Virus record (IMG/VR): IMGVR_UViG_3300010412_000039
Span: 1-37,746 of that record
Source of the DNA: a virus
Direction: 5' to 3' (one strand)
DNA: 37,746 bases
The position numbers were made by a program, and so were the translations under genes. A model generated the notes under the pieces. It was not told where the DNA came from and ran no database searches. It saw nothing but the letters and a program-made list of their open reading frames with translations. Shown one piece after another: positions 3,539 to 26,389 of this stretch (position 1 is the stretch's first letter; every line of letters begins with the position of its first letter).

Positions 3539-4032
3539 GACTTGAAAATTTTTTAAATGAAGAAATATCAAAGGAAGAATCAGATAGATTCAAGGCCAAG
3601 TGGAGAAATGAAGTAAGCAAATATGGTGCCACTCTTAAGGGATCTGAGCATTTTGATAAAGACAGGCTCAATGATCCTAGAAATAAACCACCGATTACAA
3701 CTGAAGAGCTAGATTGGCTTTTAAATGCTTGGTTTAACAAGCATTCTGATCAATTCAAAAAAGATGTTGAAGATGTCAAGAAGAATATAGCTAGACCTAG
3801 AGGTATCAACAAAAAACGAATACCTCATAATAATCTTGAATGGACTATTTCAGGAAGTGTTAAAGATAGAAATAAAGTCCATATAGTTCTAGCACTAAGA
3901 CAACTGAAAGATCAACAAGGGAAAGGCACTAAGGGTACGGCAATATTAGTAATTCAGAGTGTCATTAGAACCCCAAATAAAAAAGTCACAATGGGTGAAT
4001 ATTTTGATGTTGGAACCTATGAAATGAAATAA
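3535..4032 (+). CDS. Hypothetical 165-residue protein with capsid-targeting-like N-terminus
   Basis: Charged protein with no recognised domain. Its first ten residues, MRLENFLNEE, match the starts of the proteins at 26867 and 34744, each with LxE at residues 7-9. That is the layout of the T4 capsid-targeting sequence, which is cleaved by the prohead protease after (I/L)xE. It overlaps the preceding gene by four bases. The C-terminal half (residues about 95-165) looks beta-rich. Confidence 0.75.
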   Translation: MRLENFLNEEISKEESDRFKAKWRNEVSKYGATLKGSEHFDKDRLNDPRNKPPITTEELDWLLNAWFNKHSDQFKKDVEDVKKNIARPRGINKKRIPHNNLEWTISGSVKDRNKVHIVLALRQLKDQQGKGTKGTAILVIQSVIRTPNKKVTMGEYFDVGTYEMK

Positions 4033-6127: not shown

Positions 6128-6382
6128 ATGAAACAATATCTATGTAAGGATCATGAAGGAAAATTTTTTATTATCGAAGCACCATCACCGGAAGATGCTA
6201 GAGATGCTGCTGTTCTTGATGGTGGTGAAGTAGTACAGGATCTAAACCCAGAATCAGAAGTTGATGAACTAATAAGAGGTACTAAAGATCTTATAGACTC
6301 AACTATGAAAGACTTCTTCAGCTTGCCAGAAGTTAGGTATGCTGCAAGACAAGTGGGTTTAAAGTATAGGAGAAAAAAATGA
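6128..6382 (+). CDS. Hypothetical acidic 84-residue protein, possibly leaderless
   Basis: No SD precedes ATG 6128 and the promoter -10 box ends nine bases upstream, so translation from a near-leaderless transcript is likely unless read-through supplies a leader. The N-terminal half (YLCKDHEGKFFIIEAPSPEDARDAAV) looks like a small alpha/beta fold; the C-terminus is basic. It overlaps the next gene by four bases. No family recognised. Confidence 0.7.
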   Translation: MKQYLCKDHEGKFFIIEAPSPEDARDAAVLDGGEVVQDLNPESEVDELIRGTKDLIDSTMKDFFSLPEVRYAARQVGLKYRRKK

Positions 6383-6675
6383 TATTCGATGGTCTGAAAT
6401 TTCGGAGAACAAATAAGGTTGTAACTCTTCCACATGCTCTCTGGGAAAAGAAGGGTGATACAAGATATGTTGTATTTGGCAGAGTAGCAAAAGATCCTAA
6501 TGATCCAAAAGCTGTTGCAACCAATTGGTATCGGAGGATTGATATTGGAACTAGGGTAATTGTTAAAGCCATACCTATTAAATCGGATGGTCACAGCAGA
6601 ACTAACATGATGTACGGAAAAGATGGTTATACCTATCTTTTCATAAAAGGCCAAGTCTACATAAGGAAAACATAA
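6379..6675 (+). CDS. Hypothetical 98-residue protein
   Basis: Basic, beta-rich protein; SD AGGAG lies in the end of the preceding gene. No family is recognised. Its TAA shares its last base with the ATG of the following gene. Confidence 0.7.
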   Translation: MIFDGLKFRRTNKVVTLPHALWEKKGDTRYVVFGRVAKDPNDPKAVATNWYRRIDIGTRVIVKAIPIKSDGHSRTNMMYGKDGYTYLFIKGQVYIRKT

Positions 6676-6863
6676 TGAAATGGAATGAGAGAATAGTAAG
6701 AGTTGAGATTAGAAATGGTGAGGGGAAAGTAACTGAATGTCCCAAAGATGTAACTGTGCTTATTGTTAACCATGATAAGCAAATTAATGATATTGATTTT
6801 GGAACAAGCAGTGAGTATGATCCTCCTAACCCTCCAGGCATAGATGATGGAGTAGATGAATAG
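6675..6863 (+). CDS. Hypothetical 62-residue protein with acidic tail
   Basis: Starts within the preceding stop (TAATG), SD AAGGAAA. A beta-like N-terminal half is followed by a Pro/Asp-rich acidic C-terminus (DPPNPPGIDDGVDE). No family recognised. Confidence 0.65.
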   Translation: MKWNERIVRVEIRNGEGKVTECPKDVTVLIVNHDKQINDIDFGTSSEYDPPNPPGIDDGVDE

Positions 6864-6873
6864 GAGTCAAAAA

Positions 6874-6996
6874 ATGAATTGCAATATATTACGATGTTCG
6901 GAAAATAAAGATGGAAAGTGTAATGCTCCACAATGGTTTATTGATGAATGGAAGCTGAAAGCAAAGTGGTGTCCATTGGGAAAGGAAATAAAATGA
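6874..6996 (+). CDS. Small four-cysteine protein, 40 residues
   Basis: ATG 6874 follows TAGGAG and the frame ends at TGA 6994-6996, overlapping the ligase start by four bases. Cysteines at 3, 8, 16 and 33 could bind one zinc, though spacing differs from usual CxxC ribbons. Very short, but the SD and coupling support it. Confidence 0.6.
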   Translation: MNCNILRCSENKDGKCNAPQWFIDEWKLKAKWCPLGKEIK

Positions 6997-8852: not shown

Positions 8853-9012
8853 ACATGAGATCGTTTTAGTTTTACTTGCACTAGTAGGTATATTAAGTTT
8901 TCCCATAGCTCTATTTACTGAAGTAGGTGAGATATTTCTTTATGGATATCCATTGTGTTTTCCATTTATGCTTTATATAATGTTCTGGAACAAAAGGAGA
9001 AGTCGTGTCTAA
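8845..9012 (+). CDS. Small membrane protein, 55 residues
   Basis: SD AGGAG (8833-8837) precedes ATG 8845, which overlaps the end of the ligase gene by eight bases. Two hydrophobic segments (about residues 5-25 and 30-48) end in a basic tail (NKRRSRV), predicting two membrane spans. It is holin-sized, but nothing in the context indicates lysis. Confidence 0.65.
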   Translation: MPKHEIVLVLLALVGILSFPIALFTEVGEIFLYGYPLCFPFMLYIMFWNKRRSRV

Positions 9013-9181
9013 CCTTCAATCTGTTTGTGCTAAATGCAATACACCGATTACTATTGCAATTACATCCATTACAATAAATCCAGATGGATGGATAGAGATC
9101 AAACTAATTTGTTTTGGATGTGGCAGGAAATTCTATAAGGGAATTGGAATAGAACAATTCGAAGTAACAGAAGAGGAATAA
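9005..9181 (+). CDS. Small zinc-ribbon protein with GTG start
   Basis: 58 residues from GTG 9005, with SD AAAGGAG (8994-9000) at correct spacing and an 8-base overlap with the previous gene. CAKC and CFGC pairs about 25 residues apart form a typical zinc ribbon around a beta hairpin. The C-terminus is acidic. Function unknown. Confidence 0.68.
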   Translation: MSNLQSVCAKCNTPITIAITSITINPDGWIEIKLICFGCGRKFYKGIGIEQFEVTEEE

Positions 9182-9184
9182 TAA

Positions 9185-14413: not shown

Positions 14414-14587
14414 ATGGATTTTGTTAAAGAAGTTGAAAACCTCCAAAGAAGTATTAATAGAGGGGGTCATATGGCACATATTCAAGCAGAAGGAATGCTT
14501 GCAATTGCATATGGTCTTCTTGCAATAGCAGAATCATTAGCCAAAGAGAAGAAAGAAGATGAAAGAGTAAGGAGAAAAGAAACATGA
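14414..14587 (+). CDS. Small helical protein, 57 residues
   Basis: ATG 14414 follows AAAGGAG and the preceding TAA. The sequence is helical with an Ala-rich centre (AEGMLAIAYGLLAIAESLAK) and a charged tail (KEKKEDERVRRKET). The central region could be weakly membrane-associating. It overlaps the next gene by four bases. Confidence 0.62.
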   Translation: MDFVKEVENLQRSINRGGHMAHIQAEGMLAIAYGLLAIAESLAKEKKEDERVRRKET

Positions 14588-14724
14588 CATTTCCACCAGA
14601 AGATTTCTATGAGGAAGACAATAAAAAAAGAAGTATCATATTTTCAAAGTATTTTTTAGTAGCACTAATAATAACTACTATAGTATATTATATCATTGAT
14701 AGAATAATTCTATGGTTAAAATAA
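14584..14724 (+). CDS. Small single-TM protein, 46 residues
   Basis: ATG 14584 overlaps the previous stop (ATGA), with SD AAGGAG. An acidic, then basic N-terminus is followed by one membrane helix (about residues 22-43). It is the last gene before the 137-bp gap at 14725-14861, and its 3' end lies opposite any RNA from the leftward promoter at 14813-14843. Confidence 0.6.
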   Translation: MTFPPEDFYEEDNKKRSIIFSKYFLVALIITTIVYYIIDRIILWLK

Positions 14725-14812
14725 AAAAGACTAAACAATTAAATAATAACTTTAAAATAATAATGATAATATTAAATAGAATTATTAATACCTCTGCCGT
14801 GGACGTAACCCT

Positions 14813-14843
14813 ATTCTAACATATAATTTTGGAGATGTAAACC
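14813..14843 (-). promoter_or_regulatory. Leftward phage promoter, TTTACA-17-TAGAAT
   Basis: On the - strand: GG, TTTACA (14841-14836), 17 bp, TAGAAT (14818-14813), the same form as the seven + strand promoters. RNA would start near 14806 and run leftward, through the rest of the gap and opposite the 14584 gene. No - strand gene is visible downstream. A T-run on that strand (about 14731-14725) might end a roughly 80-nt RNA. A weaker rightward candidate overlaps it (TGGACG 14800, TATAAT 14822-14827). Confidence 0.65.
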
Positions 14844-14861
14844 TATAAGGAGAAAAAAAAA

Positions 14862-16113: not shown

Positions 16114-16126
16114 AGGAGTGAATAAT

Positions 16127-16411
16127 ATGCCACTATGTGCAAAGTGTAAAAAATTTATGCCCCCTGAGTTTTGTGAACCAGCAGAGGATCACGATTTTCT
16201 ATGTCTTTTTTGTATGAGAGACACAGATGTAATCTGGTATGGTGAGGGGCAACAAAAGAAAGCAACAAGAGAAGAAATTGCAAGAGAATATCAAATGTTC
16301 ACCAAGGAACTAAGGGAAAAGCTTTTAGATCCTTTTGCAGGTGATAAAGAGAAAAGAAAACTAGTTAAAGGAATCACAGAAAAGGAAAGTAGAATTATCA
16401 GACCATGGTAA
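16127..16411 (+). CDS. Small zinc-binding protein, 94 residues
   Basis: CAKC near the start, then FC and CLFC, forms a treble-clef or ribbon-like zinc site in the first 35 residues. The rest is a charged helical region (REEIAREYQMFTKELREKLL). ATG 16127 is preferred over GTG 16118, which lies on the SD. Its TAA is followed at once by the extended SD of the HNH gene. Confidence 0.7.
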   Translation: MPLCAKCKKFMPPEFCEPAEDHDFLCLFCMRDTDVIWYGEGQQKKATREEIAREYQMFTKELREKLLDPFAGDKEKRKLVKGITEKESRIIRPW

Positions 16412-16423
16412 AGGTAGGTGATC
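16409..16423 (+). promoter_or_regulatory. Extended Shine-Dalgarno sequence of the HNH gene
   Basis: TAAAGGTAGGTGATC can pair with almost the whole 3' tail of a standard bacterial 16S rRNA (complement TAAGGAGGTGATC), with one extra T. The same TAAAGGTAGGTGAYCT arrangement, also starting in a stop codon, precedes the gene at 24855. It sets the start of the HNH gene at ATG 16427. Confidence 0.6.
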
Positions 16424-16426
16424 TCT

Positions 16427-16993
16427 ATGACAGAAAGAGTAAGCAGAGGAAGACGAAAGTACAACATGGTATCCAGTCCAAGAGATGGTGTAGTGTTGCT
16501 AAATGCTGACTACTCATTCTTGCATGTAGTTGACTGGAAGAAAGCTGTTACCCTTATCACCAAGGGTAAGGTGGAGATCCTTAAGTTGGGTACAAGGATT
16601 GTACGAAACTTTGAAGGTACTAAAGAAATCATTGTACCTTTGATCATGAGACTTATCAAATTGGTAAGAACCTTGTACAAAGCTAAGGTTCCTTATTCTA
16701 AGAGAAATGTGTTCATTAGAGATGAGTTCAAATGCTGCTACTGTGGATGTGAACCTGGAAAACTAACCATTGAACACATTGTGCCAAGAGATCAAGGTGG
16801 TAAGTCTACTTGGGAAAACACTGTTGCTGCATGTCTACCATGTAACAACAAGAAAGAAAACAGAACTCCTTCTCAAGCAGGTATGTACTTGATGAGAAGA
16901 CCTTTTGCTCCTACTATTAATGAATTTCTACAACTACGAATGAGAAAGTGGGGAGTAAAGAGTATATTGAAAGAGTTCTTTGAATCCGTATAA
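16427..16993 (+). CDS. HNH endonuclease
   Basis: 188 residues. The N-terminal region (VLLNADYSFLHVVDWKKAVTLI) is typical of the common bacterial standalone HNH family. The HNH domain follows at about 95-145: CCYC (103-106), EHIVPRDQGG with H117, N131, and CLPCNNKK (C136, C139, N140), so both zinc cysteine pairs and the catalytic His are intact. It cuts or nicks DNA; target unknown. It sits immediately upstream of a 300-nt structured region and an RNA ligase, an arrangement reminiscent of intron or mobile-RNA loci. Confidence 0.92.
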   Translation: MTERVSRGRRKYNMVSSPRDGVVLLNADYSFLHVVDWKKAVTLITKGKVEILKLGTRIVRNFEGTKEIIVPLIMRLIKLVRTLYKAKVPYSKRNVFIRDEFKCCYCGCEPGKLTIEHIVPRDQGGKSTWENTVAACLPCNNKKENRTPSQAGMYLMRRPFAPTINEFLQLRMRKWGVKSILKEFFESV

Positions 16994-16994
16994 G

Positions 16995-17298
16995 AGAAGA
17001 TCTAGCCTAGGCAAACTTAAACAAAAATAGTCTAGACTAGTTGCCTTACCCCAAAGGGACTTCCCTGGCATACGTGACCAGATGTGGCTCTTTGGGGAAC
17101 CATAGGGGAAATCGTTAGTACCTTGTGGAGAATGTTATTAATAGGAGGATGCCTATAGAATAACAAAAAGATAGATACTAATTAAATTAAATTAAATTGA
17201 AAATTAAAATGATTAATGAAACCTAAAGCACATTAAGGTGCATGATTGGAAAAAGAGTATATCGAAGAGGTTATTAAAAGTCCTAGGCTAGATCTTCT
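16995..17298 (+). ncRNA. Putative structured RNA closed by a 17-bp stem
   Basis: This fills the 325-bp gap between the HNH and RNA ligase genes; no ORF is evident. Its ends, AGAAGATCTAGCCTAGG (16995-17011) and its exact complement (17282-17298), form 17 perfect pairs, followed by a T-rich run. Inside are CCCCAAAG/CTTTGGGG (17049-17056/17090-17097) with nested CTGG/CCAG, a two-part hairpin GTTATT+ATAGG/CCTAT+AATAAC (17134-17164), a GCAC/GTGC hairpin near 17228 and an ATTAA tandem (about 17180-17197). Resembles a stable ncRNA or ribozyme-like element, but I recognise no known family. Confidence 0.6.
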
Positions 17299-17318
17299 TT
17301 TTATTTAAGGAGTGTGTT

Positions 17319-18197
17319 GTGAATAAATTCAAAAGATATAGTGACCTTGAAAACTACTGGAATCTTGAAAAAGTTATGGAGAGGTACAATCCTGATTTTG
17401 ACAGAGATATGCCCCATTTCTGGCACGTTACTGAAAAGATTCATGGTTCAAATGTTTGTATTTCAAACATGTATAAAGAGGGACCAGCATTCTTTACAAG
17501 AAATGGTAATCAGCTTCCAGCAGACTACCAAGAAGTTTTAAAGAAGTATGATTGGGAATTTCTCTTTAGACTCTATCCTGGTCTCAAATTTATATATGGT
17601 GAAATTGCTGGACCTGGAATCCAAAAGGGTGTTAATTACGGAGATGAAAGAAAGCTTTATATCTTTGATTACCATGATGGTGAAGAATATCTAAGAATAC
17701 CACGACAAGAAGAAGGCTTTGATTATGTGCCTGTCTGGTACACACCTATTACCAAAATCTCATACAATGACTTTTTAACTTGGCTACTTGATAGACTTAA
17801 TCATGATCCTGTCTCAGCACTTAATCCCGATAAAGGAAATATAGTTGAAGGGTTTGTGGTAAAGTGTGTCTCAATGCCGATGCTAACTAAGGAAACACGT
17901 TTCATCTTCAAAGTAAAACATCCAAAATTCGAAGAAAAAGTTAGAGGACCAAAGAAAGAAAAGAAGTTTGATGATATTGATTACACTATTGTTGATCAAT
18001 ATATCAATGAGAACAGAATAATGTCTGCTATGTCCAAATATCCTGGATATAGGAAACACCAAATAGGTGATGTTATGAGAGAGATCGTTCAGGATGTTGA
18101 AAAAGACATGAAGAAAGATGGTTATAGATGGGATAAAAAATATGGTAAGAGGATTGCAGCATTTGCCCAAAAAACTGTTGTACAAGGAGCAGAATAA
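17319..18197 (+). CDS. RNA ligase (T4 Rnl2-like), GTG start
   Basis: 292 residues from GTG 17319, six bases after AAGGAG. Nucleotidyltransferase motifs: KIHGSN with adenylated lysine K40, a GEIAGPGIQ motif, EGFVVK and a FKVKHPKF motif near 225. This order and the KxHGxN form are those of the Rnl2/RNA-editing ligase group. It would seal 3'-OH/5'-phosphate RNA ends using ATP. The position about 20 nt after the structured RNA suggests that RNA or the phage tRNAs as substrates; repair of tRNAs cleaved by host anticodon nucleases is the T4 precedent. No kinase-phosphatase partner is seen nearby. Confidence 0.9.
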   Translation: MNKFKRYSDLENYWNLEKVMERYNPDFDRDMPHFWHVTEKIHGSNVCISNMYKEGPAFFTRNGNQLPADYQEVLKKYDWEFLFRLYPGLKFIYGEIAGPGIQKGVNYGDERKLYIFDYHDGEEYLRIPRQEEGFDYVPVWYTPITKISYNDFLTWLLDRLNHDPVSALNPDKGNIVEGFVVKCVSMPMLTKETRFIFKVKHPKFEEKVRGPKKEKKFDDIDYTIVDQYINENRIMSAMSKYPGYRKHQIGDVMREIVQDVEKDMKKDGYRWDKKYGKRIAAFAQKTVVQGAE

Positions 18198-19525: not shown

Positions 19526-20632
19526 ATGGCATTAAAAACTGTTAAAGGGACGTTTTCTATTTGGAGTTATGTGGGGGATGTACAGGGATGTGGAACAATT
19601 AGAGTTATCTGGCCATTTTTTCTTTTAAACCATTATAGAATGAAGGATGTAAAATTTACAGCTTTTTTTGCACCTTACTTTGTGCATCATCCAGATTTCT
19701 ATCGTAACTACGGCATTTGTCAGTTTCAAAGATCAGCAACAGAAACACATCTACAAATCTTTAAGCATTTTAGAGATGTTATTAAGAAACATACTAAGAC
19801 TGGTCTTGTATATGAAATAGATGATCTTCTAGTTGATATACCTGAATGGAATTATGCCAATGAATATTACAAGAAGTATTTTCCGTATATTAAAGAAATG
19901 ATGGGAATTGCTGATGGTATAACAGTATCAACCGAAAGATTGAAAGCAATTTATTCTGATTACAATAATAATATTGAGGTAGTACCTAATCATCTTCCAA
20001 AACATGTTTGGGGTCCGATATTCCCTAAGCATCACAATGAGCCAAGAGAATTAAAATATGGAGAAAAACCTAGAATATTATGGGCAGGATCTCAGAATCA
20101 TTTTGTAAGAAAAATAGATAAGATTCATAAAGGACTTGAAGGTGGTGATTTTGGAAATAAACTGTTGGACTTCATTAGAAAGACAACAGACATATATCAA
20201 TGGGTATTCGTGGGAGCAATGCCTGTAGAACTTGAGCCTGTAAAGAATAAAATAGAATTTCATAATTGGGTTCCTGTTTTCGAATATCCACAATATGTAA
20301 AAAATTTAGATACTGATTTTGGTATAGCACCTTTAGAGGATAACATTTTCAATGCATGTAAAAGCAATATTAAAATGCTTGAATATACTGCATGTGGAAT
20401 ACCTGCTGTATACTCTAATGTTGAGCCATATTGGAAAGCAAGCCTTAAGGCTAACAATGAAGAAGAAATGATTTCTTATGTTGAAGATCTGGCTAAAGAT
20501 GTTTCACTAAGAGGAAAAATATACAATAGAGACCAAAACACTGTTGCTGGTCAGCTATGGTGGGAAGAATCCGGTAACCTAAAGCTTTATGCCAATTCGT
20601 ATCTAAAACTATTTGGTAGGAGGTTACCGTAA
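19526..20632 (+). CDS. Glycosyltransferase, GT4-like (GT-B fold)
   Basis: 368 residues. The C-terminal half has the GT-B nucleotide-sugar site pattern: ILWAGSQNH, WVFVGAMP, then DTDFGIAPLEDNIFNACKSNIKMLEYTACGIPAV, where the E of MLEY contacts the donor ribose in family 4 enzymes. The N-terminal half has YEIDDLL and VSTERL, common in this group. Phage members modify phage DNA bases, host surface glycans or proteins; the target here is unknown. AAGGAGG (19508-19514) is 11 bases from ATG 19526 and 4 bases from an out-of-frame ATG 19519, an awkward layout. Confidence 0.85.
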   Translation: MALKTVKGTFSIWSYVGDVQGCGTIRVIWPFFLLNHYRMKDVKFTAFFAPYFVHHPDFYRNYGICQFQRSATETHLQIFKHFRDVIKKHTKTGLVYEIDDLLVDIPEWNYANEYYKKYFPYIKEMMGIADGITVSTERLKAIYSDYNNNIEVVPNHLPKHVWGPIFPKHHNEPRELKYGEKPRILWAGSQNHFVRKIDKIHKGLEGGDFGNKLLDFIRKTTDIYQWVFVGAMPVELEPVKNKIEFHNWVPVFEYPQYVKNLDTDFGIAPLEDNIFNACKSNIKMLEYTACGIPAVYSNVEPYWKASLKANNEEEMISYVEDLAKDVSLRGKIYNRDQNTVAGQLWWEESGNLKLYANSYLKLFGRRLP

Positions 20633-26356: not shown

Positions 26357-26367
26357 ATGATTATCTT
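26340..26367 (+). promoter_or_regulatory. Candidate promoter for hsp20, TTGACA-16-TATCTT
   Basis: TTGACA (26340-26345) is the perfect sigma70 -35, with TATCTT (26362-26367) 16 bp later. It differs from the TTTACA-17 family. A start near 26374 would leave only a short leader carrying the SD and would exclude the 5' half of the hairpin described at 26346-26389. The -10 is poor. Confidence 0.4.
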
Positions 26368-26389
26368 TTTTCAAAAAAGATAAGGAGGT
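26346..26389 (+). promoter_or_regulatory. Candidate RNA thermometer over the hsp20 ribosome-binding site
   Basis: ACCTCTTT (26346-26353) can pair with AAGGAGGT (26382-26389), masking the complete SD in eight pairs including one U-G. An inner AU-rich stem, ATCTTTTT/AAAAAGAT (26363-26370/26374-26381), stacks beneath it. Weak U-rich pairing over AGGA upstream of a small heat-shock gene is the hallmark of fourU-type thermometers. It would act only on transcripts that begin upstream of 26346. Confidence 0.42.

Follow-up and report, generated by a model that had tools for sequence, protein, structure and literature searches.

What does a long gap between a nuclease gene and an RNA ligase gene encode, and does its content belong with either of them? 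We addressed this in an uncultivated phage contig (a virus record of 37,746 bases, analysed over its whole length and called the window below), in which 325 nt without a convincing ORF (16994-17318) separate an HNH ORF (16418-16993) from an Rnl2-type RNA ligase ORF (17319-18197), the coding strand of all genes here being +. The original prediction described this as the sole gap over 300 bp in the window, which holds only when ORFs as short as about 45-58 aa are taken for genes; a 60-aa ORF cut-off leaves further gaps of more than 300 at 8853-9184 (332), 14414-14861 (448) and in the tRNA region (325-732). Relatives were sought with three query proteins (the ligase, the HNH protein and ribonucleotide reductase), and two contigs, G001 (loci L002, L003 and L063) and G004 (loci L023 and L064), carry the same element as the window. 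The features of the locus are as follows.

16118-16411, +: zinc-ribbon-like small ORF, upstream syntenic neighbour of the HNH gene, with homologues in relatives
16418-16993, +: PLMP-like and HNH protein, 191 aa (Pfam, AlphaFold2 model, PDB comparison)
16967-16994, +: promoter-like TTGAAA-17-TATAAG, putative only, overlapping the HNH stop codon
16995-17011, +: 5' arm of the 17-bp closing stem P1; its inner 11 nt, TCTAGCCTAGG, are invariant among relatives
17012-17018, +: CAA bulge (17012-17014, conserved), then ACUU pairing with 17278-17281
17048-17098, +: GC-rich hairpin unit of 51 nt, exactly missing in L063 (G001), with ACC repeats on both sides
17100-17128, +: hairpin CCAUAGGG/CCUUGUGG predicted from the single sequence, missing in L064
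17133-17165, +: predicted two-part hairpin GUUAUU-AUAGG/CCUAU-AAUAAC, missing in L064
17223-17249, +: internal hairpin CUAA-A-GCAC-AUUAAG-GUGC-AUGA-UUGG, present in all three members
17278-17298, +: AAGU (17278-17281) and P1 3' arm (17282-17298), the 3' side of the helix
17299-17306, +: T-rich tail 3' of the stem, present in the window and L063 and missing in L064
17319-18197, +: Rnl2-type RNA ligase, 292 aa, ligase motif KIHGSN (Pfam, PHROG)
19526-20632, +: glycosyltransferase-like ORF, right border of the variable slot that begins at the HNH gene

Closing helix and interior of the element

Between the P1 arms (16995-17011 and 17282-17298) pairing is perfect over 17 bp, which confirms the earlier claim that 17 perfect base pairs close the gap, and the helix reaches 20 bp with one G.U when it is extended into the HNH stop codon. 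No other inverted repeat within 400 nt is as long anywhere in the window, and 30 dinucleotide shuffles peak at only 11-14. Its 3' arm ends about 8 nt upstream of the Shine-Dalgarno (SD) sequence of the ligase (AAGGAG, 17307-17312) and 20 nt from the ligase GTG start; the 20 nt first given as the distance to the SD is in fact the distance to the start codon. The fold of the whole gap (-89.2 kcal/mol) was better than that of 100/100 shuffles (-65.2 ± 4.7, z -5.2), whereas the interior without the closing stem was only mildly better than shuffles (z -2.5 in the window, -1.6 and -1.8 in the two relatives), and therefore most of the folding excess comes from the closing stem. A good fold is predicted for the complementary strand as well (z -4.7), as a long inverted repeat requires, so that energy alone cannot name the strand. 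In its architecture P1 is a 17-bp helix followed by the CAA bulge and 3-4 further bp, a long helix formed by the two ends of the element.

Both internal hairpins noted originally are present, namely the 8-bp CCCCAAAG stem (17049-17056/17090-17097) and the two-part 11-bp stem (17133-17165). The CCCCAAAG hairpin is the 51-nt unit that is exactly absent from G001, and its ACC flanks make a slippage indel likely (loss at the hairpin by replication slippage). The AT-rich tract inside the element is its least conserved part, the loop within P1 varies from 139 to 270 nt among members, and apart from the conserved hairpin at 17223-17249 the interior is expendable, given that relatives are missing the 51-nt unit and about 145 nt.

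Candidate signals around the stem were also tried and rejected. Sequestration of the ligase SD, as in T4 RBS hairpins, fails as the SD falls outside P1; an extra pairing 17016-17027/17298-17309 (a pseudoknot to the SD) was not seen in L064 by eye; and TTGAAA-17-TATAAG is good-looking as a promoter, but it is not conserved in L064, and the AT-rich DNA here has many sites of this class (0.74 per kb). We also observed a 24-nt direct repeat (79%) at 16957-16980, just outside the 5' arm, and 17252-17275, just inside the 3' arm. Elsewhere in the window, 26361-26383 is a near-perfect AT-rich hairpin, TTATCTTTTTT, with a loop of 1; its 23 nt are also found, inverted, in two related contigs, as expected of a palindrome.

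Members in related phages and covariation

The proteins of G001 are 97-99% identical to those of the window (ligase 97%) and its stem is identical, the element differing in the AT-rich tract, in a few single positions and in the exact loss of the 51-nt unit. In G004, HNH and ligase are 66% and 74% identical and the element has about 146 nt between the arms; no change in the inner P1, the bulge or the flanks (17 and about 17 nt) separates the window from G004, whereas other DNA is about 71-75% identical. The HNH stop codon is the constant neighbour of the element in all three members and the next SD lies about 5-9 nt past the stem in each. The downstream gene differs, being the ligase in the window and L063 and a 106-aa zinc-finger ORF in L064, where it sits between element and ligase; therefore, the element is not simply a leader of the ligase.

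Numbered outward from the loop, P1 pairs 1-11 (TCTAGCCTAGG/CCTAGGCTAGA) are the same in the window and G004, pair 12 is A-U in the window and G.U in G004, pairs 13, 15, 16 and 17 are changed on both sides in G004 with pairing kept (four double compensatory changes), pair 14 is unchanged, and pairs 18-20 are unpaired in G004. Six contiguous extra pairs arose between random positions of the G004 locus in 0.4% of trials. RNAalifold continues the helix beyond the CAA bulge by ACU(U)/AAGU and gives five compensatory pairs in total. The internal hairpin, GCAC/GUGC in the window, becomes GCAU/AUGC in the 66-74% relative (one compensatory pair, hence a GCAY hairpin), and in its outer part U.G becomes C-G in G001. 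In the aligned conserved parts 96.8% of cells are paired (28-48% for slid versions) and 5 pairs are doubly changed, a count reached by 1 of 500 shuffles, which is of modest strength with 3 sequences and a hand-trimmed alignment. Two of the three members are near-identical, so the covariation rests on a single comparison, and matched changes could also arise without selection, through correction of the inverted repeat by template switching.

The G.U pairs speak for an RNA of the + strand, the strand of all genes here. We consider it likely, on comparative grounds, that the element is a real, selected, + strand RNA structure with a fold not yet catalogued. The folded RNA proposed originally is thus supported by the changes in P1 and the internal hairpin, and the compensatory changes in homologues on which that proposal depended are present in the 66-74% relative.

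Searches for known families

Rfam gave no match at gathering and none up to E 10 for 16900-17420 (group I and II introns, HEARO, tmRNA and tRNA included), and by ARAGORN and Rfam the window element is neither tRNA nor tmRNA. No match to the element was found by blastn against 50,697 phage records, and scans of viral contig DNA with GGGGAAATCGTTAGTA and TCTAGCCTAGGCAAA and of genome DNA with AAGTCCTAGGCTAGA gave only chance matches beyond the known contigs. A covariance model of the element, run on 22 records, recovered the three members and no others, and no hit in another 47 loci was better than E 0.1. Previous studies described GOLLD, ROOL and OLE as large, ornate RNAs (PMC12286853); the element is likewise non-coding, structured and intergenic, but it is much smaller, occurs in three contigs only and has no sequence match to them.

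A variable slot in syntenic phages

Syntenic contigs were gathered through an alignment of the glycosyltransferase. Most of them conserve the order zinc-ribbon, HNH, slot, glycosyltransferase, which makes HNH a core gene of this phage group rather than a free homing gene. In the window, G001 and G004 the slot contains the element, the ligase and small ORFs. L072 and L073 have a 77-aa ORF there, L068 has other genes, L075 and L077 have short hairpins, L076 has a stem-closed 105-nt gap (z -2.1), and the gap of L071 folds no better than shuffles. In L066, L078 and L082 the slot is almost empty: HNH is followed after 2-25 nt by another gene, and no RNA lies between them. L065 has an intact GIY-YIG gene in the slot (6217-6972) and L070 an apparently decayed one (3706-3810), which marks the slot as an insertion hot spot. 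A check by eye of the right border showed no repeats that bound the cargo.

The slot hairpins of L075, L076 and L077 were rejected as homologues of the element, having no sequence likeness to it and sizes that are common in gaps. Indeed, 26 of 101 gene gaps of these phages contain a perfect stem of 10 bp or more; structured intercistronic RNA is therefore a normal device of the group, of which P1 is the extreme long-range case. Among other gap hairpins, those of 11-15 bp at L068:7583-7640, L076:13527-13790, L078:11926-11989 and L078:13470-13580 have CCTCC or CCTC in the 5' arm, and their 3' arm may hide the SD of the next gene, like T4 translational hairpins.

The HNH protein

The HNH protein matches Pfam HNH (E 1e-11); its residues 22-87 (approximately) resemble the PLMP domain of IscB and residues 89-165 the HNH domain of Cas9/IscB. 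In an AlphaFold2 model built from 12 homologues (mean pLDDT 72, about 70 over the PLMP part), the HNH domain was closest to type II-D Cas9 in a PDB comparison (Z 10.2), and the N-terminal b-b-a-b-b domain (residues 23-87) aligned to IscB PLMP with a middling Z of 7.1 (rmsd 1.8, 50 residues). A RuvC domain with bridge helix was sought, and in Pfam only HNH models matched, while the NCBIfam IscB model covers the HNH stretch only. By these comparisons, the protein is an IscB-like PLMP plus HNH protein of IshB-like layout with no RuvC. The IshB layout in the OMEGA literature is PLMP plus HNH, and the window protein has the same two domains and size, but its gene is fixed in a phage group here and an RNA guide is only putative. 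Distant relatives of the HNH protein lie within tRNA arrays at L043:1396-1540 and L052:3495-3590, with tRNA-like sequence directly 3'.

The combination of IscB PLMP and HNH domains beside a structured RNA of about 300 nt resembles OMEGA systems (IscB/IsrB with omega RNA, HEARO). We disfavour that reading because orthologue slots are empty, the RNA is downstream rather than upstream (the HNH ORF begins just 6 nt past the preceding ORF, which leaves the upstream position of an omega RNA unfilled), the protein has no RuvC, and there is no HEARO match. HNH was also rejected as an obligatory partner of the RNA, its orthologues in L066, L078 and L082 having no adjacent RNA. PLMP domains contact omega RNA in IsrB (PMC9581776), and the neighbouring RNA is therefore worth a binding test; IshB-like proteins have been proposed as HNH donors to IscB (PMC12477157).

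The RNA ligase

Both Rnl2 domains are present in the ligase (RNA_ligase PF09414, 3.4e-13; T4_Rnl2_C PF18043, 7e-8; PHROG 548), and its NCBIfam TIGR02307 score of 57 bits, under the 197 cut-off, makes it a divergent Rnl2-type member. Of 18 further records, only that of a relative of this phage (G008, IMGVR_UViG_3300035158_000869) has a close relative of the ligase (E 5e-104), wedged between tRNA-Tyr and tRNA-Thr (L151:897-1265) in an array of 11 tRNAs in 4.3 kb with a phage tmRNA (tag ADDYAYAKAA). The element was sought in this record, with the covariance model included, and is absent. An Rnl2-type ligase, and a copy of it inside a tRNA/tmRNA array, recall the phage Rnl1/Rnl2 tRNA-repair systems, whereas the window element is no tRNA or tmRNA.

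The ligase follows the element immediately or after one intervening gene in each of the three members, and no element was found in syntenic phages without a slot ligase. This co-occurrence is confined to one lineage and counts as a single event, so by comparative evidence the ligase is a neighbour and no proven partner. The joint element of HNH, RNA and ligase first proposed is not supported: L066, L078 and L082 have HNH without the RNA, G008 has the ligase without it, and in L064 a gene intervenes.

Possible roles of the element

Our leading reading, held tentatively, is that the element is a cis-acting intercistronic RNA boundary after the HNH stop, involved in mRNA processing or stability, at a variable cargo slot. 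The gap would encode a structured + strand RNA, presumably transcribed, that fills the space from the HNH stop codon to the next SD; P1 and the internal hairpin would form a cis-acting boundary, for processing or stability, after the HNH message, and the locus would take inserted accessory genes, the ligase included. This is supported because P1 is far above chance, its pairs are compensatory, the HNH stop is a constant neighbour, the SD spacing is kept and gap hairpins are common. Intercistronic RNase III processing hairpins occur in phage messages, e.g. T7 early mRNA, and the boundary may be comparable to them in principle: both are long double-stranded RNA between co-directional phage genes, from stop codon to next SD, but the loop of the element is far larger and variable (139-270 nt) and its inner helix is strictly conserved. 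Against a cis boundary, the invariance of the inner helix, bulge and flanks exceeds what a plain processing hairpin needs, and favours a protein- or sequence-specific role.

That conservation of inner P1, bulge and GCAY hairpin beyond pairing needs would suit a discrete, trans-acting small RNA, bound by protein or serving as a substrate of the Rnl2-type ligase (e.g. P1 nicked and resealed, or circularised), which we regard as the main rival, with a clearly lower probability. The ligase within one gene in 3/3 members, the ligase-less syntenic slots that hold no element and the promoter-like site abutting the P1 5' arm point the same way, but the co-occurrence comes from one lineage, G008 has its ligase flanked by tRNA-Tyr and tRNA-Thr and has no element, and the promoter-like site is of a common type and not kept in L064. 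More speculatively, and somewhat less probably again, the element may stand for a small phage RNA of a new class, marked by a long, bulged closing helix, a disposable interior and a GCAY hairpin; this RNA would be released from the message and act with a protein encoded next to it (ligase or PLMP-HNH), e.g. as a circularised ligase substrate.

The conservation of the inner repeats TCTAGCCTAGG/CCTAGGCTAGA as sequence, the insertion hot spot and the AT-rich tract inside could also reflect a feature of the DNA, either inverted repeats for a recombinase, a replication protein or the HNH enzyme, or an AT-rich cruciform origin. We find this unlikely, as G.U and compensatory outer pairs suit RNA better than DNA, the AT-rich tract is the least conserved part, and no cargo-bounding repeats were seen by eye at the right border. 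Less likely still is the simple long-loop intrinsic terminator raised in the original prediction: TTCTTTTTATTT follows the stem directly in the window and L063, but L064 keeps the stem and continues with AAAACAAG, so that the U-tract is not conserved in the 66-74% relative, a 270-nt loop is outside the usual layout, and a same-strand gene starts within about 20 nt. A relic of a mobile intron or intron-like ribozyme, the degraded intron of the original prediction, would fit a slot that accepts GIY-YIG genes (intact in L065, decayed in L070), but it is very improbable given no Rfam intron match even at E 10, a 146-nt member smaller than a group I core, an intergenic site with no interrupted exon, and a helix that is maintained rather than decaying.

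Significance

To our knowledge, neither the natural substrate of T4 Rnl2-type ligases nor the function of PLMP-HNH (IshB-like) proteins is settled. An RNA supported by covariation and placed between genes of both kinds is a concrete candidate partner for either, a link that the comparative evidence does not require. Even as a plain cis element, it would represent an uncatalogued phage RNA fold, in which a selected helix spans an expendable interior.
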